A stretch of 18,038 bases of DNA from Omnitrophica bacterium GWA2_52_8 (lineage in GTDB: Bacteria > Omnitrophota > Omnitrophia > Omnitrophales > Aquincolibacteriaceae). This document shows positions 1 through 18,038 of the stretch, one piece after another. The stretch covers positions 4,160-22,197 of the forward strand of contig MHFC01000112.1 of NCBI GenBank assembly GCA_001804025.1, in the 5' to 3' direction. The notes under the pieces are model-generated. The model saw nothing but the letters and a program-made list of their open reading frames with translations. It ran no database searches and was not told the origin of the DNA. A program made the position numbers and the translations under genes. Each line of letters starts with the position of its first letter. The first letter of the stretch is position 1.

Positions 1-1105
1 AAGACCGGGTGTTATGCCCGGCTCCGTGGATCGGCAAAGGCTCCCGGCGCAGAGCATGCTCGATAAAATTCGGCAGCACGCGATAATCATCAGCACGGAT
101 GCCCGGGCCGTAAACATTGAAGGGCCGTATCACTTTGACCGGCACATTATAAACCTTCCAAAACACCTGGCACATGGTTTCGCCAAAACGCTTTGATTCA
201 TCATAACAAGAGCGCGGCCCGTCCATCGAAACATTTCCAAAATAAGTTTCCGCCGTCGGAACATGACGGTTATCCGGGTCCCCGTAAACTTCGCTGGAAC
301 TCATAAAAACAAAACTCTTCACATTTTTCTGCCGGGCCATTTCGAGCATCTGCCTCGTCCCTTGCGTCCCGACGTCCATGGTTTCGATAGGAAACTTCGT
401 ATAATAAACGGGTGAAGCAATGCCAGCCGCATGGATAAGGTAATCTACCGGCCCGTCAAGCTCCATCGGGCGCACGACATCGTGGCGCACAAAACGCAGG
501 TCGTCATCCGTGATGATCCGCTGCTCATACCCGGTCACAAAGTTATCGACAAGCACGGCCTTCATTTTCCGCTTTAGAACTTCCTGATTCAAATATTTAA
601 AAAGCAGAACCATATACCGGCCCAGAAAACCGAAGGCCCCTGTAACCAGAAAGGTTTTGCCCTCAAAAAAAGAATGATACGGTTTTAAAAAGCGTGCAAG
701 GTTACGGATGTCTTCAGATATCACTTCGGAAGTGATCAGTTCGGAAGCAGCGCTTCGAGCTGCCGGCGCAGGGAGTTTCGTCGCCTCGAGGGTCTCATGC
801 GAGACCTCGTTCGAAATTCGTTTTTTCGGGCTATACTTCCGGCCGGAAAACTTGCCAGATTCTTCTCCCGCTTCTTGGGACAATCCGCTCTGGATATACG
901 TCTTGATGAGCTGCTGATAACCCATGTCGCCTTTATGCTTCGCCATACCGCGCAAATCATCGATCATATTCTCGGGAATACGGATCGAAATCAACTTGCT
1001 GTCCAGTTTCTTGGCAGCCAAAACACCCGGTTCTGATTGAATTTCCTTATGCTTCATAGCAGATGCGGGCTTGTTCGCCTTAGCGGCCACCGTTTTTTTT
1101 GCCAT
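1..1105 (-). CDS. Ribbon-helix-helix (CopG/BrnA-like) domain fused to NAD-dependent sugar-nucleotide epimerase/decarboxylase, 3' truncated by window edge
   Basis: The gene reads in one frame from ATG at 1105 to the window edge without a stop (368 codons visible). Residues 1-35 are a basic, Ala/Lys-rich tail. Residues 36-75 (LISIRIPENMIDDLRGMAKH, then YQQLIKTYIQSGL) have the strand-helix-helix pattern of CopG-type antitoxins such as BrnA. Residues 76-127 are a polar linker. From about 128 an extended SDR fold begins: nucleotide-binding VTGAFGFLG (154-162), SSSEVYGDP, catalytic Y301xxxK305 within CYDESKRFGE, and RPFNVYGPG. The SDR part resembles UDP-glucuronate decarboxylase/dTDP-glucose dehydratase-type enzymes that make nucleotide sugars for surface polysaccharide. 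An AGGGGG ribosome-binding site precedes the ATG by five bases. No ATG lies near the epimerase start. A GTG at 722-724 could start it alone but has no Shine-Dalgarno. The C-terminus (substrate-binding part) is outside the window. The fusion is seen; DNA binding and substrate are inferred. Confidence 0.85.
   Translation of the reverse strand, partial: MAKKTVAAKANKPASAMKHKEIQSEPGVLAAKKLDSKLISIRIPENMIDDLRGMAKHKGDMGYQQLIKTYIQSGLSQEAGEESGKFSGRKYSPKKRISNEVSHETLEATKLPAPAARSAASELITSEVISEDIRNLARFLKPYHSFFEGKTFLVTGAFGFLGRYMVLLFKYLNQEVLKRKMKAVLVDNFVTGYEQRIITDDDLRFVRHDVVRPMELDGPVDYLIHAAGIASPVYYTKFPIETMDVGTQGTRQMLEMARQKNVKSFVFMSSSEVYGDPDNRHVPTAETYFGNVSMDGPRSCYDESKRFGETMCQVFWKVYNVPVKVIRPFNVYGPGIRADDYRVLPNFIEHALRREPLPIHGAGHNTRS
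716..745 (-). repeat. 15-bp imperfect tandem duplication in the linker of the fusion gene
   Basis: On the minus strand 745-731 (TCCGAACTGATCACT) is followed directly by 730-716 (TCCGAAGTGATATCT), matching at 12 of 15 positions and encoding SELIT-SEVIS at the junction between linker and epimerase. The same stretch holds the inverted repeat TCACTTC-G-GAAGTGA (721-735). A second inverted repeat, GGTCTC-ATGC-GAGACC, lies nearby at 791-806. This may mark how the two domains were joined, but it could equally be simple linker drift. Confidence 0.5.
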
Positions 1106-1119
1106 GCGATCCCCCTAAG

Positions 1120-1178
1120 TGTATATACATCATTTTCGAATTTCCAGCATTTGTATATACATCTTGCCGGATTGTCAA
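1120..1178 (-). promoter_or_regulatory. Promoter with twin perfect palindromes (candidate operators) upstream of the RHH-epimerase gene
   Basis: A perfect -35 (TTGACA, complement of 1173-1178) contains the TGA stop of the upstream PAP2 gene. A 17-bp spacer leads to TACAAA (complement of 1150-1155), or 15 bp to TATACA (1152-1157). Two identical 10-bp palindromes TGTATATACA lie at 1152-1161, overlapping the -10, and at 1120-1129, in the predicted 5' leader before the ribosome-binding site. They are 32 bp centre to centre, about three helical turns, so both face the same side of the DNA. RHH proteins typically bind such short repeated palindromes as dimers, and the downstream gene itself encodes an RHH domain, so autorepression is the simplest reading. 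The promoter and repeats are seen; the binding protein is inferred. Confidence 0.65.
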
Positions 1179-1933
1179 GAATTTTTTTCGGCTTTACTGT
1201 AGGATTCATGGCCCGCGACAAAGATTGCGGCCGCATGGGCCAAAAAAAATGCCGCCATGGCGTCCGAAGGCCAATGCTTTTCAAGCTGGATACGGGATAG
1301 TGCCGTAAACGCAGGAAGAATCAAAAGAAACCATAAATAAATACGCGCAGGAAATTTTATCATCAGATAGAACACCGCGGCCGCAACGATCGTGACATCT
1401 CCGGATGGGAAACTCTGAAACATGCCATCGTCTCCGAACACCCCTTGCCGGAAATTCAAAAATGAAGACGGCCCCAGTTCCGCAAGCGGCCGTGCTCGGG
1501 TAGACAATAACTTTAGAACCCCGGAAAATAAACCCGCGAGCAGGCAGGAGAAAACCACATGCGCCACAGCCTTTCTTCCGGAACCGAATTTGAGAGCGGT
1601 AAAAAGATAATAAATGAGCAGGAAATAAATAAGCAGATACTTGTCTCCAAGATGCGCCCCGAGACGGATCCAGAATTCCGGAGTTTCATAACTAAGCAGC
1701 TGAAAAAAATCGACCCAGTACCGGTCTCCGTAAATACAAGCGGCTAAAACTCCCGCGACACAAAGCACCGGGAGCGTCTGCCGCCGGATATCTTTTGTGA
1801 CCATCCAAGCATAGGCGACGAGCCCCTTAAACGACCCTCTCCGCCATTCAAGCGCCATCATGACCACGATAAGAAGCGAAAGGATTTTTTTATGATGAAT
1901 GAGCACCAAAACGTAATCGATCCATGATTCCAT
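1175..1933 (-). CDS. PAP2-family (phosphatidic acid phosphatase type 2) integral membrane phosphatase
   Basis: The 252-residue protein has several hydrophobic segments and the three PAP2 motifs in order: KLLSTRARP (the KX6RP motif), FPSGD, and SRIQLEKHWPSD (SRX5HX3D). Family members remove phosphate from lipid phosphates such as phosphatidate, undecaprenyl diphosphate or lipid A, with the active site at the membrane face. The second motif is normally PSGH; here His is replaced by Asp (codon GAT), which removes the usual general acid, so activity or substrate may differ. The nucleophilic His and its partner Asp in the third motif are present. The ATG at 1933 has no Shine-Dalgarno, but a TATAAT lies six bases before it, suggesting a leaderless transcript. 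The stop codon is embedded in the promoter of the next gene, so the two are closely packed but separately promoted. The exact lipid substrate cannot be told from sequence. Confidence 0.85.
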   Translation of the reverse strand: MESWIDYVLVLIHHKKILSLLIVVMMALEWRRGSFKGLVAYAWMVTKDIRRQTLPVLCVAGVLAACIYGDRYWVDFFQLLSYETPEFWIRLGAHLGDKYLLIYFLLIYYLFTALKFGSGRKAVAHVVFSCLLAGLFSGVLKLLSTRARPLAELGPSSFLNFRQGVFGDDGMFQSFPSGDVTIVAAAVFYLMIKFPARIYLWFLLILPAFTALSRIQLEKHWPSDAMAAFFLAHAAAIFVAGHESYSKAEKNS

Positions 1934-2741: not shown

Positions 2742-4651
2742 AACTTGATGCGAGAATTCCCGACGGACCGCTTGCAGAAAAATGGGACCGCCGGCGAAAC
2801 GAGCTGAAACTTGTCAATCCGGCCAATAAACGCAAATACAAAATTATTGTGGTCGGCACGGGTCTCGCAGGTGCGTCAGCATCCGCCAGCCTCGCGGAAC
2901 TCGGCTATCAAGTCGACACGTTCTGCTATCAGGACAGTGCGCGCCGGGCACACAGCATTGCCGCTCAAGGCGGGATTAATGCGGCGAAGAATTATCCCAA
3001 CGACGGCGACAGCATCTATCGCCTTTTTTATGACACAATCAAAGGCGGTGATTTCAGGGCCCGTGAAGCCAATGTCTACCGCCTCGCCCAAATCAGCAAC
3101 ACCATCATCGATCAGTGCGTCGCACAAGGAGTGCCTTTTGCGCGTGAATACAGCGGCTATCTGGCCAACCGGTCTTTTGGCGGCGCTCAGGTTTCGCGGA
3201 CATTTTACGCGCGCGGACAGACCGGACAGCAGCTTTTATTAGGCGCTTACCAGGCTCTCATGCGGCAAGTTCATGCCAAAAAAATCAATTTGTATACGCG
3301 CAGTGAGATGCTGGATCTGGTCGTTATTGCGGGAGAAGCCAAAGGCATTCTCATCCGGGATCTCATTACGGGAAAAATCACCTCGCATGCGGCGGATGCA
3401 GTCGTTTTAGCCACAGGGGGTTATGCCAACGTTTATTATCTTTCCACCAATGCCAAAGGCTGTAACGTCACCGCGACATTCCGCGCTTACCGCAAGGGGG
3501 CATTGTTTGCGAATCCTTGTTACACGCAAATCCATCCGACGTGCATCCCGGTTTCCGGCGATTACCAATCCAAACTGACCTTGATGTCGGAGTCCCTGCG
3601 CAATGACGGGCGCATCTGGGTCCCGAAACAGAAGGCCGACAAACGAGCACCGCAGGACATTCCCGAGGCTGAGCGAGATTACTTTCTCGAACGCAAATAT
3701 CCGAGTTTCGGGAATCTGGCGCCGCGCGACATTGCCTCGCGCAGCGCAAAAGAAGTCTGCGATGATGGCCGCGGTGTCGGCGAAGGGGGTTTTGGGGTTT
3801 ACCTTGATTTTGCAGATGCGGCCAAACGTTTGGGCAAGCCGGCTATTGCGGAACGCTACGGCAACTTGTTTCATATGTATGAAAAAATCACCGGGGAAAA
3901 TCCATACGCGCGTCCGATGCGCATCTATCCTGCGCCGCATTACACCATGGGCGGCTTATGGGTCGACTACCATTTAATGAGTAACATTCCGGGTCTTTTT
4001 GTCATCGGAGAAGCCAATTTCTCGGACCATGGCGCCAACAGGCTCGGCGCCAGCGCGCTCATGCAGGGACTGGCCGACGGTTACTTCATTCTCCCCTATA
4101 CGCTGGGAGATTATTTAGCACAAACCAAACCCGGTCTTTACAAAACCGGCCATGAGGAGTTCAAAAAAAGCGAAACCGCCGTCAGCTCACAAACCCGCCG
4201 CTTTATTGAAATGCGCGGAAAACGGACGGTTGATGATTTTCATCGCGAACTCGGAAAATTAATGTGGGACCTCTGCGGCATGTCACGCAGCGACAAAAGC
4301 CTGCGGGAAGCCCTGCAGCGCCTACCGAAGATTCGCGAGGAATTTTATCGGAACCTCAAAGTTCTCGGAACGGGAGAAGAACTCAACCAGTCGCTTGAAA
4401 AGGCCGGCCGGGTGGCGGACTTTTTTGATTTTGCCGAACTTCTCTGCCATGACGCACTGCATCGTTCCGAGTCCTGCGGCGGGCATTTCCGTATCGAAAG
4501 CCAGACACCCGACGGCGAGGCCCAGCGGGACGACAAACAATTCTCCTATGTTGCGGCTTGGCAGCATACGCAGCCCGGGCAAATGCCGCTGCTCCATAAA
4601 GAACCCCTCACATTCGAAAATATCAAGCTTGTACAAAGGAGTTACAAGTAA
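2738..4651 (+). CDS. sdhA: Succinate dehydrogenase/fumarate reductase flavoprotein subunit
   Basis: This 637-residue catalytic subunit oxidises succinate to fumarate (or the reverse) at a covalently bound FAD. The dinucleotide-binding motif VVGTGLAG is at 38-45. The covalent-FAD histidine is probably H72 in [13 protein letters not shown]. Substrate and flavin-site blocks [20 protein letters not shown] and [19 protein letters not shown] are intact, and length is normal for the family. The ATG at 2738 is used because it overlaps the sdhC stop and gives the usual N-terminus. The reading frame stays open upstream to 2513, but that 75-codon extension lies inside sdhC and does not look like protein. 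The gene is translationally coupled to sdhC and abuts sdhB. Confidence 0.95.
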
Positions 4652-5434: not shown

Positions 5435-8400
5435 CTAGGATCCGCTATGCTGCGGCGGGGCCGATGCGCTGCTTTCGGACACGGCCGGTTTTACGGAAGG
5501 TTTTTGGTAGAACCGAAGTTGTCGGCCATCTACAAGATCCGCACCGATAGAACCTTTGAGGCGTTTCAGAAACGCGCTTGATTTCGCAAGCTCGAGCCGG
5601 TCATTAGCCTTTCTCATACGGGCCGGAAGCGCCAATCTTTCACAGGCCTCATGATTCCCCGGTTTGGAAATAAAATTATTCAAATAACCGACATGCATTT
5701 CCCACAACCCGATATCGACGGCCTGTTTCGCCAGAAGCCTCTCTTTATACCACTCTGAATTGAGCAGATAATCGCGCGTAAACATTTTCCGGATTTCGGG
5801 ACTGGTCAGGTCCTTGCCCTCATATTCGCCGGATGACATGATGTGAAGCAGCGCTTTGAGCGGAGGGCATGCCGCGCGAATGCTCCCGTCCTGAAAATAG
5901 TTTTTCGCCACGCGCTCCTGAGCTTCAACGATATTGTCAATGCCGTCCACAAAAGTTTCCAGGTCCTGTAACTCCGGTTTCAGCATGTCTTCGTTAAACA
6001 CAGTATTAGGATTGTTGAAAATCCGGCCGAGAAACGAGTGGACAAATTTAATCGTGATCCGGAACCCCAGCCGGCTCGCCAGAGCCTTGCGCCCTTTGTA
6101 GTCAAAATCCGCAAGCTTCTCCAGATATTTTTCGCGGATTAAATATTTGGGATCGCGCTCATGAATGGACATGCGCGACCAGATTTCCGGCATCAATAAA
6201 CTCAGATCATGGTCCACACGGATATAAGGCCCCACATATCCCGCGGCGGATGTAAATCCGTCATAACCGGACAGGATATAAGATACCAGCGCATTATTAA
6301 GATCGGTGGTCGGCCACAGCGCATTAAACGGCCCTTTGGTCAGGGCCCCTTCGGAGCCGGCCCCCGTTGTGGAGGGCGATTTCCCCGTCAGACTGCAGAC
6401 AAAGTCCATAAACAGCTCGGGAAGCTCCTGATAATGAATCGGATTATAAACAGCAAGCGGACGCATTCCCGACTCAGGATCGGGGGGATTGTTGCGACGG
6501 CCCGCCAAAACTGCATTCACGACTGGATATATCTTCTCTTCGAGCGGGATGCGCCTAAAAAAACGCGTGCTGATTTCGCACAGGTACTGGAACCGCTCAT
6601 CTACCAGATCCGGACGGTTTTGCAAATAGCGCGGGTTTTTGCACCGCTGACCGTTGATAAGCCGCGGATGGGACGGCACCACGATAAACCCTTCCTTGCC
6701 CGCTTCTACAAATTTCCGGATAAACTTTCTCACCGGTTCCGTATAAAGGTCGAATCCAATGGCATCCTGCATTAACTCTTTTGCGGACAGAAGCGTCAAG
6801 GGCTCATAGTTCGAAACAAAACTATTCAGACTCACCAGATCCGCTTCCGCCTGTTTGTCATACCCGCGGTTAATCGCATCATCCGGGCGCTGAAACAAAC
6901 GGTATTCGCAGTTATGAACAATCTTGAGGCTAAGATTGTGATACTCGGCCACATGGTACGGCACATATTCTTTCGGAACCACGACCGAAACGGAAATATC
7001 GTCTTCAACCTGAAGCTTTGCGGCAGGGTTAAAGTCCTGGCGCAATTTATAGGTCCTCCACGATCCGTCTTTTGCCCAGCCGACACGCAGATAGTTGGCT
7101 ACGAGTTTCCGGTCTTCATATTTAAGTTCGTATCCGGGATACCCGTTGATGATATCGACGCTGAAATGTTCCCGCCAATTCTCACCCCACTCGGGCCGGT
7201 AGTACCGCTTCACGACGAAAATAATTTCGCGGATGTGGTGCGGGATGCTTTCAAGCCACCGGTTATAAACTTCCGTATATTCACTCGACGGCGTCAGCAG
7301 TTTAATCACCGAACCCAGCGACCGCTTAGGGCTTAAAACCGGCCGGCTGTCGCGCTTATCCTTGAATTTGCGCTTAAAGCGGTCTCCGAAATTCCGGTTC
7401 AGGATTTCCGCGACAATATTCATGTCCCGGTGGAAGTCTGAGACAAAAATCGACCCTTGAAATACGGAATAAGCAATGGACTTCGAAATTTCTGATTTTC
7501 CGCCGCCGGACACCGTACAGGGTTTATGGCACAGGATTCCTTCGGCAACCGTCCCAATCAAACGCCAGTAAGGACCCCCCGACTGCTTTTCCATATGAAT
7601 GCGGTAACCCGACGGCAGCACGTAGGTATTAAGCGGCGAAAGCCTGATTTTTTGCTCACTGCGTTCGAACGTCCAGCTTACCGTTTGTTCTTTAAGATTA
7701 AACTTTGTATTCTCGGGCACATAGAAGATATTCGGATATTTTTTATCGATCGCATAACGCTCGGGCCGGATGTCCATCATCGAACCGTACATATTGATCA
7801 AATCTTCGAATTTATGCGCATAAAGTGGGCCAAGGCTCTCGGCGTAATACTCTTCTCCCAAATCATAACTCGGGTACGCAATTGCGCCTCCCGAATGCTC
7901 TTCTTCGCAAAGGCCGAACAAATTGGCCGACATACTGATTTGAGTTTTAACTTCTTTTTTGCAGTAGCCGAAATAATTGTCGGCAATCAACGTCACCATG
8001 ACACCGCGGGCATCCCGGGCCGTGACCTTAAAGGCATTTCCGGAATTATAAAGCTCGCTTTCATCCCGCCAGCACATCCCGTCATGCCTTTGCCGCTCGG
8101 AAGCATCCTCCCAATGCGGAAGTCCGACCGATTTTTTCGTCAATTGCGTGAGATGCGGGGACAGAATGACGCACCCCGTGTGACCGGTCCAGTGCTCGAC
8201 ATCCAATCCGGCATCATTTTCGGGAAGAAACGGGTCGCCGGCATTTCCGAAAATAGACTCCACAAAATCCAGATTGCTGACCAGGCTTCCGGGAGCAAAA
8301 AAACGGATCTCCATCGATTTTTCACGGATATAGCCTTTTACCGTCGGGCAAACTACAGGGCGAAGCAGCAAAGACACGAAGGTTTCTGCCGTCTTCTTCT

Positions 8401-8977
8401 GAACGGCCGTAAAGGGAAGCGTGAGCGCTTGCTGCGGCGGATGTAACGCATGCCAGAGCAGTTTGGCGAAAACCGATTTTGGCACCGTCAGCTTATCTTC
8501 CGCAATGGGCAGACCGCCTTCGGCAATATGAAACGCCCCTTTTGTTGTCCGCCTGTCGTTTTTGGGGTTATGCAGCACGCCTTGCTCAACGCGGTAGGAG
8601 CTTACCAAATCAGAATGATATTCATCTTTATCAACAGGCAAGGAAAGTTCGCGGGCAATTCCGTACATATCAAGCACGAAGGTGCGCGTCGGAAGTTTGA
8701 TGGATTCGTTCAGCGGTATGTCTTTGAGATAAGAGTCGAGAAAGTCCTGAATGCGCCGGTCAGCGGGACAATAGTAATCGGAGAGCAGCCTGTTTTTTTC
8801 CTGATAGTTCCGCAATAGCGGCTCCGCCATGCGGATAAACTCACCCTCTCTTTCAATCCCAACCGACTGAAATCCCATCGAAGCCAGTTTAAGATTGATA
8901 TATTGGGTCAGTTTTTTCCGTGTCGCATGCCAGTCTTTATCCGAGTAGGAACCGATTTCTTTTTTGGTGCTCATCAC
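5435..8977 (-). CDS. Probable PPi-type phosphoenolpyruvate carboxykinase (1180 aa)
   Basis: PPi-type PEPCK (EC 4.1.1.38; known from Entamoeba and Propionibacterium) interconverts oxaloacetate plus PPi with PEP, Pi and CO2, and is far longer (over 1,100 residues) than ATP- or GTP-PEPCK. Supporting features: NYFGYCKKEVKTQISMSANL with K341, followed 20 residues on by H361, the spacing of the Mn-binding Lys and His in GTP-PEPCK; a P-loop-like TVSGGGKSEISKS (488-500); and D514 20 residues after K494, as for the kinase-2 Asp. The P-loop lies about 130 residues after H361 rather than about 26, implying a large insertion. A well-conserved-looking block is SPSTTGAGSEGALTKGPFNA (867-886). The C-terminal ~25 residues are low complexity. 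Start is GTG 8977 (GAGG seven bases upstream) or ATG 8974. No signal peptide or membrane segment, so cytoplasmic. The neighbouring sdhCAB fits C4 metabolism. The family call is from recognition, not a search; standard pipelines may label it hypothetical. Confidence 0.65.
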   Translation of the reverse strand: MMSTKKEIGSYSDKDWHATRKKLTQYINLKLASMGFQSVGIEREGEFIRMAEPLLRNYQEKNRLLSDYYCPADRRIQDFLDSYLKDIPLNESIKLPTRTFVLDMYGIARELSLPVDKDEYHSDLVSSYRVEQGVLHNPKNDRRTTKGAFHIAEGGLPIAEDKLTVPKSVFAKLLWHALHPPQQALTLPFTAVQKKTAETFVSLLLRPVVCPTVKGYIREKSMEIRFFAPGSLVSNLDFVESIFGNAGDPFLPENDAGLDVEHWTGHTGCVILSPHLTQLTKKSVGLPHWEDASERQRHDGMCWRDESELYNSGNAFKVTARDARGVMVTLIADNYFGYCKKEVKTQISMSANLFGLCEEEHSGGAIAYPSYDLGEEYYAESLGPLYAHKFEDLINMYGSMMDIRPERYAIDKKYPNIFYVPENTKFNLKEQTVSWTFERSEQKIRLSPLNTYVLPSGYRIHMEKQSGGPYWRLIGTVAEGILCHKPCTVSGGGKSEISKSIAYSVFQGSIFVSDFHRDMNIVAEILNRNFGDRFKRKFKDKRDSRPVLSPKRSLGSVIKLLTPSSEYTEVYNRWLESIPHHIREIIFVVKRYYRPEWGENWREHFSVDIINGYPGYELKYEDRKLVANYLRVGWAKDGSWRTYKLRQDFNPAAKLQVEDDISVSVVVPKEYVPYHVAEYHNLSLKIVHNCEYRLFQRPDDAINRGYDKQAEADLVSLNSFVSNYEPLTLLSAKELMQDAIGFDLYTEPVRKFIRKFVEAGKEGFIVVPSHPRLINGQRCKNPRYLQNRPDLVDERFQYLCEISTRFFRRIPLEEKIYPVVNAVLAGRRNNPPDPESGMRPLAVYNPIHYQELPELFMDFVCSLTGKSPSTTGAGSEGALTKGPFNALWPTTDLNNALVSYILSGYDGFTSAAGYVGPYIRVDHDLSLLMPEIWSRMSIHERDPKYLIREKYLEKLADFDYKGRKALASRLGFRITIKFVHSFLGRIFNNPNTVFNEDMLKPELQDLETFVDGIDNIVEAQERVAKNYFQDGSIRAACPPLKALLHIMSSGEYEGKDLTSPEIRKMFTRDYLLNSEWYKERLLAKQAVDIGLWEMHVGYLNNFISKPGNHEACERLALPARMRKANDRLELAKSSAFLKRLKGSIGADLVDGRQLRFYQKPSVKPAVSESSASAPPQHSGS

Positions 8978-13148: not shown

Positions 13149-13520
13149 TTATTCGCTTCCGTCAAAGCATTTTATGATTAGGCCCAGCAGCTTTTCAGGG
13201 TGATAAGGTTTCATCAAATAATCATAAATGCCTTCTGCAATAAACAAATCCTGCATATCTTCATAACCAGTCAGCACAATAATGGGAATTTCTTTTGTCC
13301 GGACATCCGTCCTCAGTTTCCGGACAAGCGACCACCCGTCCATTTTAGGCATCTTGATGTCCATCACGATCAGGTCCGGTTTGTTCTCGATCGCAAGTTT
13401 CAGCCCGGCCATGCTGTCGTTTGAGGTCATCACCCCGTACCCTTCGTGCTCAAGGCGGCGCCGCGTAACCTCAAGCAAGTCCGGGTCATCGTCAATTAAT
13501 ATGATTTTTTTTTGCGGCAT
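13149..13520 (-). CDS. Single-domain response regulator (CheY-like receiver)
   Basis: The 123-residue protein is a stand-alone receiver with the full phosphorylation site: acidic pair D11/D12 (ILIDDDPD), phospho-acceptor D54 (VMDIKMPKMDGW), T84 (VLTGYED) and K104 (MKPY). It has no output domain, so it passes phosphate on or acts by protein contact. It lies 73 bp downstream of the soluble histidine kinase and on the same strand, so that kinase is the likely partner. A GAGG about ten bases before the ATG serves as ribosome-binding site. Confidence 0.92.
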   Translation of the reverse strand: MPQKKIILIDDDPDLLEVTRRRLEHEGYGVMTSNDSMAGLKLAIENKPDLIVMDIKMPKMDGWSLVRKLRTDVRTKEIPIIVLTGYEDMQDLFIAEGIYDYLMKPYHPEKLLGLIIKCFDGSE

Positions 13521-13593
13521 CGGCAGCCTGCCTCATTTCCTTTTCCCAGGTCCGTGGCCTCAGGCGCGCATTCGTTTGATTTCCCTATCCTCC

Positions 13594-14955
13594 TCATCCT
13601 AAGCCGCCGGTCTTTTTTTCCTCAAAATTCGCCACGCGCGCCATGACATATTCAATCATTTCCGACTCACTGCGCCCGTCATCCGGCATGCCCGCATAAA
13701 CCCAATTCCAATTTACAAATTCCCTCAAATTAAGTTGCCTTAACTCCCGCTCAAGCGCGGTATCGATGCGGGCCGTTACCTTCGGCGCCTGTTTTTTATG
13801 CGTCTCCGATAGCAGAATCCAGATAAATTCCCTGTCGCGAATTACACGGTCCGCTTTCCTTCTCAAACCTCCCTCACAAATTTCCGAAACACGGGTTACC
13901 AGTGTTTCATGGTCCAGTCCGGCGGCGGTTCTTTGCAAAGGTTTGCCCGAATCAAACCGGCACACGGCCACAGCGCACGGGATGTCGGGATCGGGGCTTG
14001 AAACATAAACCTGCTTAATTTCCCGCGTCAGGACATCGCGTACCGTCAATTTCGGCAGCGTGAATGTAAATTTGGTTCCGGCCTTCAGCCGGCTTTCGAC
14101 CCCTATTTCGCCGCCATGCAGCAGCACGATTTGTTTGGAAATGACCAGTCCCAGCCCCGTACCTTGATCACCCGGACCGGCAATTCTTCCAAATTGCTGA
14201 AACCGGCCGAATACTTTCACCGCATCTTCTTCTGCGATTCCCCTGCCGGTATCGATGACCGATAACTCGACATGATCCCCATAATCGTCGAGCGTGATTG
14301 TGACTTTGCCTTTTTTGGTAAATTTAAGCGCGTTGCTGACAAGATTGGTCAAAACCTGGTGCAGGCGGTCATAATCACCAAGAATATGCACCGCGGGAGC
14401 AGACATGCGGACGTCCAATTTAACCGGCAATCGGTCCCCCGCGCCCGAAGGCCTCAGCGCGTTTGCAATCGAATGGATAAGCGTTGCGAGATTGATCACT
14501 TTCCAGCGGAGTATGACCCTGCCGGCTTCCAGTTTTGAAATATCCAGCAAGTCGTTTATCAGGCGGACCAGCCGGTCGACGTTTTTAAGCGACATGGACA
14601 AAACTTCAGCCTGACTTTTGGAGATGGGCCCATGGATCGCTTCCAGGATCTGACAAATCCCTTCGCGAAAGATCGTAATCGGGGTCCTCAGTTCATGCGA
14701 CACCGTTGATATAAAATCCGACTTGAGCTGGTCCAGCTTCTGGAGCTCGCGGTTCTTTCGCTCCAGTTCCTTATAAAGAACACGAATCCCTTCGTTTGTT
14801 TTTTTAAAGGCACTGCTCAGATCGCGGACTTTGCGCTTGAGTTCTTCGATTTTACGCCGCTTGGAGGCCGCGGGGCCTCGTTTGGAAGCACGGGCTTTTT
14901 CTTTGGGGCCGCCCACCGCAGAACGTCTTTTTTTCCTGTCCCGTTTTATCGCCAT
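13594..14955 (-). CDS. Soluble histidine kinase with C-terminal degenerate GGDEF-like domain
   Basis: The 453-residue protein has no membrane segment. Residues 1-35 are very basic (MAIKRDRKKRRS, SKRGPAASKRRK); 36-80 are a coiled coil; HisKA follows with H87 in SHELRTP; the ATPase domain has N204/N208 (LTNLVSNALKF), DTGRG (235-239) and GDQGTGLGL. After about residue 310, where most kinases end, 140 more residues resemble a GGDEF fold: strand CAVAVCRFDSG (327-337), then RDREFIWILLSET (373-385) in the place of the GGDEF motif and the following strand, then a helix and GMPDDGRSESEMIEYVM like the end of diguanylate cyclases. The active-site glycines are missing, so this would be a non-catalytic, perhaps c-di-GMP/GTP-sensing or structural, domain. 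The start overlaps the upstream receiver by ten bases, implying coupling. The kinase call is firm; the GGDEF relationship is inferred by eye. Confidence 0.9.
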   Translation of the reverse strand: MAIKRDRKKRRSAVGGPKEKARASKRGPAASKRRKIEELKRKVRDLSSAFKKTNEGIRVLYKELERKNRELQKLDQLKSDFISTVSHELRTPITIFREGICQILEAIHGPISKSQAEVLSMSLKNVDRLVRLINDLLDISKLEAGRVILRWKVINLATLIHSIANALRPSGAGDRLPVKLDVRMSAPAVHILGDYDRLHQVLTNLVSNALKFTKKGKVTITLDDYGDHVELSVIDTGRGIAEEDAVKVFGRFQQFGRIAGPGDQGTGLGLVISKQIVLLHGGEIGVESRLKAGTKFTFTLPKLTVRDVLTREIKQVYVSSPDPDIPCAVAVCRFDSGKPLQRTAAGLDHETLVTRVSEICEGGLRRKADRVIRDREFIWILLSETHKKQAPKVTARIDTALERELRQLNLREFVNWNWVYAGMPDDGRSESEMIEYVMARVANFEEKKTGGLG

Positions 14956-15332
14956 AATGATCCGAATATTTTCTTAAGGGATTCGATAAACGATGAGAAA
15001 TCAGACGTCTTGACAACATAATCATCAGCACCCGACGTTTTTGCTTTTTCCGCATCGACGGCGTCGATATGCCCGGTGGAGATAATAATTTTCCCTTTAA
15101 ATTTTTTTTTACGCGCTTCCAGACAAATTTCGAACCCGTCCATATCCGGAAGAATCGTGTCGAGGATAATGACAGCGGGTATTTCCGCATCAAGGGCTCT
15201 GAGGCAGGATTCCCCATTCTGGACAAAGCGCACATGACTAAAACCGGCCTTAGTCAAACAAAACCTCATGTTTTTCTGATTCTGCAAGCTGTCTTTGGCA
15301 ACCATAATCAACGGGTTATACGCGGGGCTCAT
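14946..15332 (-). CDS. Single-domain response regulator with altered acidic pocket
   Basis: The 128-residue receiver has phospho-acceptor D58 (IILDTILPDMDGFE), T86 (IISTGH) and K108 (YVVKTSD). In the usual Asp-Asp pair before the first turn the sequence is VAKDS, so only one acidic residue (D14) remains and the other is Lys13. Mg2+ binding and phosphorylation could be weakened. A strong AAGGAG lies five bases before the ATG. The stop overlaps the downstream kinase start by ten bases, so the two are translationally coupled and probably work together. It follows the membrane kinase by 157 bp. Confidence 0.9.
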   Translation of the reverse strand: MSPAYNPLIMVAKDSLQNQKNMRFCLTKAGFSHVRFVQNGESCLRALDAEIPAVIILDTILPDMDGFEICLEARKKKFKGKIIISTGHIDAVDAEKAKTSGADDYVVKTSDFSSFIESLKKIFGSLWR

Positions 15333-15489
15333 AATCTCCTTAAAATCAATCCCATTATCGGCGTTTCATCCATCCGGTATCCATCATCTTTCTCACGTAC
15401 CGCATAGCGCGATACCTTTATTTGACATTCTCTTAGGATATTTCGAAAGATCGCCCATCAAGCGGGTCTTGAGAGTTTTTCAGATCGCT

Positions 15490-17337
15490 TCATTGTGAGA
15501 CCGGATGCATAGGAATCGTAAAATGAAACTCAGCGCCTTTTCCTGTTTCGGACTTAACCCACACCCGGCCCTGATGCTCCTCCACAATACGCTTTACGAT
15601 GCTCAGCCCGGCCCCCGTACCGCCGAAATTTCCGGCAGATTGCAGTCGCTTAAACAGCCCGAAAATTTGATCCTGCTCCCGGGGGTCAATTCCGATCCCA
15701 TTGTCCGCAACGATAAAATGATGGGCCTGGTCCTCTTCGTAATATTTGATTTCGATTTCTGGAAGCCTTCCGGTTTGATCACGGTTTGAGAATTTAATCG
15801 CATTGCTAATAAGGTTTGAAAAGACCTCCGTTATATTAATCGCATCGCATAACATAACCGGCAAATCCTTAGCCACGGAAAGCCGCGCTTGCGACTGCTC
15901 GATGGAATGGGCATAGCGGCTGATAACACCCTCGACAAGCGGGCCGATCGCCGTTTTTTTAATCGGGTTGCGCACCTGGGATATCCGGGCCAACCGGATC
16001 AAATCTTCAACATAGTCATCCATTTTGACGGCCCTGCCGATAATTTCGTTAAGGAAATCGTTCGCCTGAACGTCCAGCCGCTCCCCATAATCATTTTTTA
16101 AACGCTGCGCAAAGGATAAAATACCCCGCAAGGGCGGCCGCAAATCATGGCCTGCGGCGGAAACAAAACCATCCAGCTGCGAATTCATCTGACGTATATC
16201 CTGTTTCTGGATCTCCAGACTTTCCCTAACCCGGGCCAAGGACTCTTCTTCTTTCCGCAATTCATCATGCGCTGCCAAAAGCGCTGCGCGATCCTGTTGA
16301 TCTGTGGAGGATAATGGGCCCGTTCGTTTGTCTTGAACCGGTTCAGAGCCCGGTGCTTCTTGTTTCTTTCTGTCCGGATCCCACGGCAGCTTTGCCGGCC
16401 GCAAGACCCATAATCCGGCCAAAATCAAAAAGCCGGAAGCGGCCGCAGCCACGGCCAACATTGTTTTTTGCATGCCGCCAAGCGCATTAAAAATAACGCG
16501 GCGCGGAAAACTCACGATCCATCCTCCGGCAATCTCCGGAAGGGTCAATAAAAGGGCGAAAACATGCTCGCCCCGTTCATTAAAAGTATCCGGCAATATC
16601 CTGCTGCGGCCGATGTCCGTAAGCCCCGTAATGAGAGGACCCGCATTTCTCAGACTCAGGGTCCGTCGCCGCCATCCTTCTTTTCCTGTTTTTGATTTTT
16701 CAATGATCGTCACTGTATTTTCCGTTTGAAATAAAACAAGCTGGCTTTCGGATTCGCCCCATTCTTTTTCAGCATTCAAAAAAAGATCGAAATACCGGCC
16801 AGGTTTCATTTTAACGGCAAATATCCCGACATCGCTCTGCCCCGAACGGACATTGGCAAAAGCATAAAAATGCAACACCTCGCTATCGTCCCATGAGATT
16901 GAAACATCGGTACCGCTTCCGCCCCGCACCACAATCGGCGCATCAACCCAACGCTGGTTTTCGCGCGCTGGATGAGACGAGAGCCGAATGATCATTTTTG
17001 AGTCGATCACACTGATTTCTTCAATGTCGGGCATTACCGACCGGAGCGTGCCGAAGGCTGCGCGGATTTTTTGCCGGGCCGCAATATCCGGCATTGCCAG
17101 ATAATTTTTCAAATCCCGGCACAAAGATTCCGTAAGAAAGGACCGTATACGCAGCTGTGTATCCGAAAGAAATTGCCGGCTGAGTGCTTCCTGATTCAGG
17201 CTCAGAGTTTCTAATTTTCTTTTTGCGGTTTCGGATAAAAGGCGGCTTGCATGGCTCAACCCAAGAAAACAAGTCAGCCAAAGCGGCATGACCGTGATCA
17301 ACAAAAAACCAAGAAACCGTTTTTGGCGCGGATTCAT
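15490..17337 (-). CDS. Membrane histidine kinase with extracytoplasmic sensor and phytochrome-type kinase core
   Basis: The 615-residue protein has a membrane segment at about 8-27, an extracytoplasmic region of about 260 residues (30-290) that looks like a Cache-type ligand sensor, a second segment at 291-312, a Pro/Lys-rich linker, a coiled coil (345-390), then HisKA with H397 in AAGHDLRPPLRGI and an ATPase domain with N508/N512 (SNLISNAIKF), DNGIG (545-549) and GGTGAGLSI. The HDLRPPL variant of the H-box is typical of phytochrome-like and related kinases. The fused core has no receiver; the receiver downstream (157 bp away) is a plausible partner. No clear Shine-Dalgarno precedes the ATG at 17337, which lies 57 bp after the EAL-gene stop. 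The ligand is unknown. Confidence 0.9.
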   Translation of the reverse strand: MNPRQKRFLGFLLITVMPLWLTCFLGLSHASRLLSETAKRKLETLSLNQEALSRQFLSDTQLRIRSFLTESLCRDLKNYLAMPDIAARQKIRAAFGTLRSVMPDIEEISVIDSKMIIRLSSHPARENQRWVDAPIVVRGGSGTDVSISWDDSEVLHFYAFANVRSGQSDVGIFAVKMKPGRYFDLFLNAEKEWGESESQLVLFQTENTVTIIEKSKTGKEGWRRRTLSLRNAGPLITGLTDIGRSRILPDTFNERGEHVFALLLTLPEIAGGWIVSFPRRVIFNALGGMQKTMLAVAAAASGFLILAGLWVLRPAKLPWDPDRKKQEAPGSEPVQDKRTGPLSSTDQQDRAALLAAHDELRKEEESLARVRESLEIQKQDIRQMNSQLDGFVSAAGHDLRPPLRGILSFAQRLKNDYGERLDVQANDFLNEIIGRAVKMDDYVEDLIRLARISQVRNPIKKTAIGPLVEGVISRYAHSIEQSQARLSVAKDLPVMLCDAINITEVFSNLISNAIKFSNRDQTGRLPEIEIKYYEEDQAHHFIVADNGIGIDPREQDQIFGLFKRLQSAGNFGGTGAGLSIVKRIVEEHQGRVWVKSETGKGAEFHFTIPMHPVSQ

Positions 17338-17393
17338 GGCGGTAGAATAATCCTTTTGGCGGGGTTAAACAAGAACGGGATTTGTCACAATTG

Positions 17394-18038
17394 TTATGAG
17401 GCCAGCGGCGTGGCCGGCTTTCCCCATAAAAAACCCTGTCCGTAAACAACGCCCAGCTGCTTCAAGACCTCCAGATCTTCCCGCTCTTCGATGCCTTCGG
17501 CGATAATTTCGGCATCAAGGCTCCTGGAAACGGCGAGAAGACGTTTCAAGGCTTCGCGGACGGCAACGTCTTGGGCAAGTCCGTGAACATTTTTTCGGTC
17601 AATTTTAATAATGTCCGGTTTTAGCAATACAAGACTTTCGAGGCAGCTTCGCCCGAACCCCACATCGTCGATGGCAATCAAGACTCCGGCTTTTTTAAAA
17701 GCCTTGACGGACTCGAGCAGGTGCGCGGGACTCCCGAAAATCTGCTGTTCGCTGACTTCGATGCAATAACGGGTGCCGGTCAGTTCCGGCGGCGGCAGCA
17801 GTTTGACAAGATGGGCAGCGGGAATATCCAGCATGGTCGACGGAAAAAGATTTAAATGGCAGCGCGCTCCCTGGGGTAAGTGCAACGACCCGGAAACAGC
17901 GGTTTTAAAACAACAATGGTCCACCAGCGTCAGAATATTGTGTTCGCTGCTCAACCGGAAAAAATCAACCGGCATTTCAAAGCCCTTGATCGTAGAGCGC
18001 ATCAGAATTTCATAGCCGACCTTGCGTTCGGACCGCAG
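17394..18038 (-). CDS. EAL-domain c-di-GMP phosphodiesterase, 5' end beyond window
   Basis: The frame is open to the right edge: 12 more codons (including VGYEILM) precede the first ATG at 18002, and that stretch is the conserved EAL signature (here EIL), so the true start lies outside the window. Visible catalytic residues are E of EIL, N in CHLNLFPSTM, E in YCIEVSE, the DD pair in IAIDDVGFG, K in IIKIDRKNV, E in IIAEGIEERED and Q in YGQGFLWGKP. The set is complete, so the domain should hydrolyse c-di-GMP to pGpG. Loop 6 is DDVGFG rather than DDFGTG. What precedes the domain (sensor, GGDEF, receiver) is not visible. It is the first visible gene of the minus-strand signalling cluster. Confidence 0.92.
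   Translation of the reverse strand: MRSERKVGYEILMRSTIKGFEMPVDFFRLSSEHNILTLVDHCCFKTAVSGSLHLPQGARCHLNLFPSTMLDIPAAHLVKLLPPPELTGTRYCIEVSEQQIFGSPAHLLESVKAFKKAGVLIAIDDVGFGRSCLESLVLLKPDIIKIDRKNVHGLAQDVAVREALKRLLAVSRSLDAEIIAEGIEEREDLEVLKQLGVVYGQGFLWGKPATPLAS

Follow-up and report, generated by a model that had tools for sequence, protein, structure and literature searches.

An antitoxin-like ribbon-helix-helix domain on an Omnitrophota nucleotide-sugar enzyme that probably represses its own operon

We consider it likely that a nucleotide-sugar enzyme of Omnitrophota resembling UDP-glucuronate decarboxylase acts as an autorepressor of its own operon, using an N-terminal ribbon-helix-helix (RHH) domain akin to antitoxins to bind paired copies of the palindrome GTATATAC in its promoter. 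The gene opens a stretch of 18,038 nucleotides from Omnitrophica bacterium GWA2_52_8 (hereafter the window). At the level of sequence, the evidence comprises the fusion itself and its conservation, the single group that its members form in a tree, the presence of paired sites at one place per fusion genome, the spacing of these sites, and the occurrence of the same site at related antitoxin genes; from these observations we infer binding and repression.

The initial annotation had claimed an uninterrupted frame starting at position 1105, and this frame (1105..2, reverse strand) is indeed free of stops over all 368 residues of its translation. Its proposed RHH domain at residues 36-75 was likewise borne out by a match of the CopG_antitoxin type (PF12441) that is conserved across 55 aligned fusions. 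The full short-chain dehydrogenase (SDR) core that it had described held in part: the Rossmann motif (G156, G159, G162) and the Y301/K305 pair are where it had placed them, but the window begins at the edge of a scaffold gap and therefore lacks the last part of the enzyme. Pfam assigned residues 153-367 of the window protein to the Epimerase family (PF01370, E 4.8e-36), while CopG_antitoxin matched residues 35-72 of the full window protein with 25.3 bits, just below its cut-off of 28 bits; the 44-residue RHH slice alone passes this cut-off with 29.1 bits. Coordinates of all features are given in Table 1.

The contig around the window (L007; 22,197 bases) belongs to a 2.2-Mb genome bin of 82% completeness and holds runs of N at about 691-749, at 2947-2994 and at 4142-4159, the last directly before window base 1. 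This last run of 18 N interrupts the fusion gene, the C-terminal part of the enzyme resumes beyond it in a different frame, and the stated gap length does not match the missing enzyme portion as judged against relatives. In a MAG with scaffold gaps, one of them at the window edge, a frameshift, a misassembly or a chance open frame could in principle have joined two separate genes. However, the domain junction (about 655-880) is over 650 bases away from the gap and the same junction recurs in 54 other clusters, which led us to reject this reading, whose probability we regard as negligible; by its sequence, the RHH-SDR fusion is genuine. Elsewhere in the window, Pfam searched up to an E of 0.01 gave nothing for an open frame of 1180 residues (5435-8977, reverse strand). 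A run of signalling genes (13149-18038, reverse strand) appears by eye to encode histidine kinases and response regulators, and Pfam found an EAL domain at its far end (17394-18038).

Table 1. Features of the window around the RHH-epimerase fusion gene and its promoter.
Feature	Position	Strand	Basis or remark
RHH-epimerase fusion gene, first 368 codons	2..1105	-	Open frame; remainder past the 18-N scaffold gap that adjoins window base 1
SDR domain, residues 151-368 portion	2..655	-	Pfam; structure searches with homologue P0002
Poorly conserved, variable linker (approximately residues 76-128)	722..880	-	Alignment; modelled with low confidence in homologue P0002
RHH domain, residues 36-75, CopG_antitoxin (PF12441) type	881..1000	-	Pfam and alignment of 55 fusions
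Probable ribosome-binding site AGGGGG	1111..1116	-	Read from sequence
Proximal candidate operator palindrome GTATATAC	1121..1128	.	Between promoter and ATG
Predicted -10 box TACAAA	1150..1155	-	17 bases from -35; partly inside distal operator
Distal candidate operator palindrome GTATATAC	1153..1160	.	Overlaps predicted -10 box; 32 bases from proximal
Predicted -35 box TTGACA	1173..1178	-	Overlaps stop codon of upstream PAP2 gene
PAP2-family phosphatase, upstream neighbour, not part of the system	1175..1933	-	Pfam

A search for homologues with the same two-domain order, as the initial annotation had proposed, returned 54 further fused clusters. Among the best 120 of 6,634 protein clusters with an E of at most 0.001, these 54 (425-475 amino acids) cover 90-100% of the query including the RHH domain, and the other 66 cover 66-70% of it. 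When the 121 enzyme domains from this protein search were placed in a tree, without the separately collected locus sequences discussed below, all 55 fused rows fell inside one group of 58 (SH-aLRT 96), within which three unfused rows (P0085, P0089 and P0092) also sit. The distribution of the two states requires at least three changes on the tree, as one gain followed by two losses would give. Public names of some clusters include UDP-glucuronate decarboxylase, nucleoside-diphosphate-sugar epimerase and NAD-dependent epimerase/dehydratase family protein; the RHH domain is mentioned in none of the cluster names shown, some of which are shortened.

Of 97 related genomes, nine, all from one family, were recognised as carriers of the fusion. 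One orthologue (L034, G037:C39) was left out of these counts because it starts at query residue 212, at a contig start, where its fused or unfused state cannot be told, and the fusion of G008 retains the RHH domain and promoter on a contig that ends inside the enzyme. When 384 genomes drawn from the phylum were scanned with the RHH profile, 57 matches came up in 49 of them; nine matches lie in open frames of 299-630 codons, which are the nine fusions, and the frames of the remaining 48 do not exceed 184 codons. A separate RHH scan of genome contigs confirmed seven loci out of 57 stretches, namely six fusions from named records of Candidatus Omnitrophota and one stand-alone antitoxin of Elusimicrobia. 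When we searched for long proteins in which this RHH is joined to another domain, just nine candidates came up and five known fusions were returned, a sample too small to say much on other RHH fusions.

Within the fused proteins, conservation sets the RHH apart from the stretches on either side of it. Over the 55 aligned fusions, the commonest residue has a mean frequency of 0.74 in the RHH, compared to 0.21 in the N-terminal tail before it and 0.26 in the linker after it. Nine RHH residues are invariant (I39, S40, R42, L51, A55, Y63, Q64, I67 and K68), including S40 and R42, present in 55/55 fusions, which we take to face the DNA. The PF12441 profile matched all 23 RHH slices of fusions given to it at E up to 1, with a best value of 2.5e-7. 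That the name of the domain comes from this one profile, barely at its cut-off, is a point that we count against our preferred reading. Searching solved structures with the RHH by itself gave weak matches to a pArc chain (E 0.044), to Arc repressor chains (E 0.32 and up) and to chains with unrelated names. In a single-chain model of the fused homologue P0002, the SDR domain is mostly confident and the linker is of low confidence; helices 43-56 and 60-77 occupy the place of the RHH, likewise at low confidence (block pLDDT 47-58), and the strand is missing, as one would expect of a domain whose folding depends on dimerisation.

The enzyme domain has the motifs of the SDR fold (TGxxGxxG and YxxxK), with G156, G159, G162, Y301 and K305 invariant in the 55 aligned fusions. 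Both by sequence and by fold, the closest solved structure to P0002 is human UDP-glucuronate decarboxylase / UDP-xylose synthase (UXS1; PDB 2b69 and 4gll), which its SDR domain matches with a sequence E of 1.2e-56 and, as the best Foldseek matches, with 38% identity. By this resemblance the SDR domain is UDP-glucuronate-decarboxylase-like; for the gap-cut window protein, no family scored above its cut-off among those shown from NCBIfam (25 of 28). Downstream on the window's contig follow genes for a cupin, a short-chain dehydrogenase and a C-methyltransferase. All three are also present after the fusion in L049, L051 and L052, and the cupin and short-chain dehydrogenase were seen in L050 and L053 before the contig ends (Pfam named all three genes of L052 and the cupin and methyltransferase of L051, the others being named by likeness).

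The palindrome GTATATAC, which corresponds to the TGTATATACA repeats of the initial annotation, occurs exactly twice in the window, at 1121 and 1153, and its paired form tracks the fusion closely. In a first set of 16 genomes, the pattern GTATATAC-N8..38-GTATATAC was present in 9/9 genomes with the fusion and 0/7 without it (reversed-pattern control 0/16), and across 47 genomes of the order in 9/9 with the fusion compared to 2/38 others (reversed-pattern control 1/47); since the window itself supplied the pattern, the independent score is 8/8. Within the nine fusion genomes, paired GTATATAC is found only at the fusion gene, just upstream. The two other occurrences (G002:C35:686-711 and G032:C34:19622-19647) each lie, by eye, within a larger inverted repeat. 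The RHH profile found nothing in these two genomes despite their paired sites, which we also count against our preferred reading. Among unfused orthologues (67-73% identity), GTATATAC is absent from 18/18 loci covering 64,080 bases, and the next gene is the same kind of cupin in 16 of the 18; it went unread in two loci, L018, whose contig ends first, and L027, with an early stop in the frame walk. The proposal that the fusion controls its own promoter through these repeats is thereby supported by candidate sites at the fusion gene in the window genome and in 8/8 others. The annotation had also considered repression of polysaccharide promoters; because the paired pattern that we searched has one place per fusion genome, the sites favour autoregulation over control of polysaccharide promoters in general.

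Both the spacing of the sites and their position within the promoter fit a repressor. Adjacent sites are separated, start to start, by 12, 21, 22, 31, 31, 31, 32, 32, 40, 40 and 41 bases, i.e., near whole helical turns. A Rayleigh test gave R 0.81 and p 0.0003 for all spacings at 10.5 bp (p below 0.0001 at a period of 10.0 and 0.0051 at 11.0) and R 0.83 and p 0.0006 for one spacing per genome (32, not 12, taken for G011, and 40 for G006), though these p values are optimistic given the uniform background of 8-45 and the relatedness of the genomes: the nine fusion genomes are apparently of one origin and do not represent nine independent events. In all nine fusion promoters, TTGAC stands 12 or 13 bases before GTATATAC, so that a TACAAT-like -10 box, assigned like the -35 box by consensus, would fall partly inside the operator; this predicted layout fits repression by blocking of the polymerase. 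Searching the 47 genomes for TTGAC-N12..14-GTATATAC gave 13 matches, nine of which are the fusion promoters (one match for the reversed control). We rejected a wider regulon sharing the fusion promoter layout, as the four other matches (G031, G004:C46 and two in G030) all have the N14 spacing, and by eye no RHH or sugar gene was seen beside them in the forward frames.

In the mechanism that we favour, the RHH domain would have retained the DNA specificity of its kin among BrnT-module antitoxins, i.e., recognition of the palindrome GTATATAC. Dimerisation of the enzyme may bring two RHH chains together, and pairs of RHH domains would then occupy the two palindromes on the same face of the DNA. 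With the upstream palindrome covering the predicted -10 box, bound protein would block RNA polymerase and shut down the operon of fusion enzyme, cupin, short-chain dehydrogenase and C-methyltransferase. Enzyme made in excess would thus bind its own promoter and stop transcription of its own operon, and repression would presumably fall as the level or ligand state of the enzyme changes.

Stand-alone relatives of the RHH domain point to its likely source. The closest of the five compared, L069, shares 59% identity over 44 residues; its antitoxin gene is the second behind an open reading frame matching BrnT_toxin (E 1.6e-7) with 32.0 bits, just under the cut-off of 34.5, and GTATATAC occurs in the stretch before this toxin–antitoxin pair. 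Across 21 stand-alone loci (60,344 bases), ten hold GTATATAC, with ten sites that all lie upstream of the antitoxin, at the actual or expected place of the toxin promoter. In seven of these ten loci we recognised a toxin frame from a sequence motif or by eye (the others being L083 and L086, which come from one genus, and L091); the Pfam toxin test covered only the toxin of L069/L064. Further upstream sites were found at the Elusimicrobia antitoxin (L055) and at L072 in G004, both of which also show BrnT-like frames, but not at L071. Exact upstream GTATATAC is therefore present at 12/24 stand-alone antitoxin loci (23 of the 48 stand-alone matches listed, plus L055) and missing from the other 12, so we rejected the palindrome as a rule for all such antitoxins. 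One-mismatch versions stand before the toxin in L073 and L076, and as a second site 11 bases away in L064 and L080. The arrangement TTGACA-N12-GTATATAC at L078 and L084 is that of 7/9 fusion promoters. A toxin–antitoxin fusion occurs at L072 (7468-8019, G004:C24), where one open frame of 184 codons encodes both a BrnT-like toxin and a CopG-type antitoxin, with GTATATAC close upstream. The same genome carries an RHH-epimerase, and given this single GTATATAC at its BrnT-antitoxin frame, besides the paired sites at the fusion, the fusion may have further targets with single sites.

The palindrome shared with related antitoxin genes suggests that the domain arrived together with its operator from an antitoxin. 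Going further, we tentatively propose, with a confidence somewhat short of even, that the fusion descends from a gutted BrnT-type module which lost its toxin, whereas its promoter with GTATATAC and its antitoxin RHH survived, the RHH becoming part of a nucleotide-sugar enzyme. This enzyme would have turned into a self-sensing repressor of the sugar operon to which it belongs and might share operators with surviving BrnT modules, as could happen in G004.

The fused RHH could instead have kept its antitoxin role, binding a BrnT toxin in trans, with its DNA binding as a leftover. We think this very improbable, in spite of the closeness of the domain to the BrnT-associated antitoxin L069 and of BrnT genes in three of the nine fusion genomes, including the window's own (one match, on another contig). 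No BrnT match was found in the other six, though several are incomplete and the search also missed the L069 toxin, and no BrnT toxin gene was found adjoining the fusion, where the cupin, SDR and C-methyltransferase genes follow. The operators have moreover stayed paired, and matches of the fused proteins to the 79-position antitoxin profile start late, spanning 41-77 in the window protein and 35-77 in the fused L052, compared to 22-77 in the stand-alone L069. About as improbable in our view is a domain that merely dimerises or tethers the enzyme and has no regulatory role. Dimerisation of PutA is mediated by its RHH (PMC5293562), but a purely structural role would leave unexplained both the sites at 9/9 fusion genes versus 0/18 unfused ones and the invariance of S40 and R42.

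A different question is whether autorepression would also respond to a ligand, i.e., whether the protein is a true trigger enzyme in which substrate, product or NAD+/NADH in the SDR domain alters RHH binding and the operon tracks the sugar-nucleotide or redox state. This reading, which adds a ligand switch to our preferred explanation, is possible, although we lean against it. A cofactor site with intact, invariant SDR motifs and a DNA-binding domain reside in one protein, and PutA couples the two (PMC5293562), but the linker is long, unconserved and modelled with low confidence, and does not suggest a tight allosteric path.

The BrnAT complex binds and downregulates its own promoter (PMC5086665). 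With BrnT/BrnA and CopG_antitoxin (PF12441) modules, the fusion shares the RHH sequence family and the upstream GTATATAC of half of the stand-alone loci; unlike them, it has no toxin gene, its RHH is joined to an enzyme, and its operators are mostly 21-41 bases apart rather than 11 (with one mismatch) as in L064 and L080. The likeness to human UXS1 is confined to the SDR domain of P0002, as the matches cover this domain and not the RHH. Among the papers returned by our open-access searches (subscription papers and preprints being outside this scope), no title or abstract opening described an RHH-epimerase fusion, and in the available part of PMC12419801 the term ribbon-helix-helix appears in the reference list only.

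The closest parallel is trifunctional PutA of E. coli and relatives (RHH, proline dehydrogenase and P5C dehydrogenase), an autogenous transcriptional repressor with an N-terminal RHH on a metabolic enzyme (PMC5293562). The idea of a wholly new kind of trigger enzyme therefore has to be given up, and the fusion appears as a further case of a known kind: one chain holds an RHH and a catalytic domain, and the candidate operators, located by sequence, lie in the enzyme's own promoter. In related genomes, the same enzyme precedes the same kind of cupin gene in fused form with operators and in unfused form without them, so that one promoter and one protein would suffice for a direct test of how autoregulation arose. 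The differences from PutA are an SDR nucleotide-sugar enzyme (Pfam finds Epimerase in the window protein and neither proline dehydrogenase nor P5C dehydrogenase), an RHH of the CopG_antitoxin type and the operator GTATATAC; no flavin or membrane switch is known for the fusion. If our reading is true, this enzyme would stand besides PutA as a further metabolic enzyme turned transcription factor by the gain of an RHH domain, here with the likely donor visible among related antitoxins of the same phylum that have the same operator.
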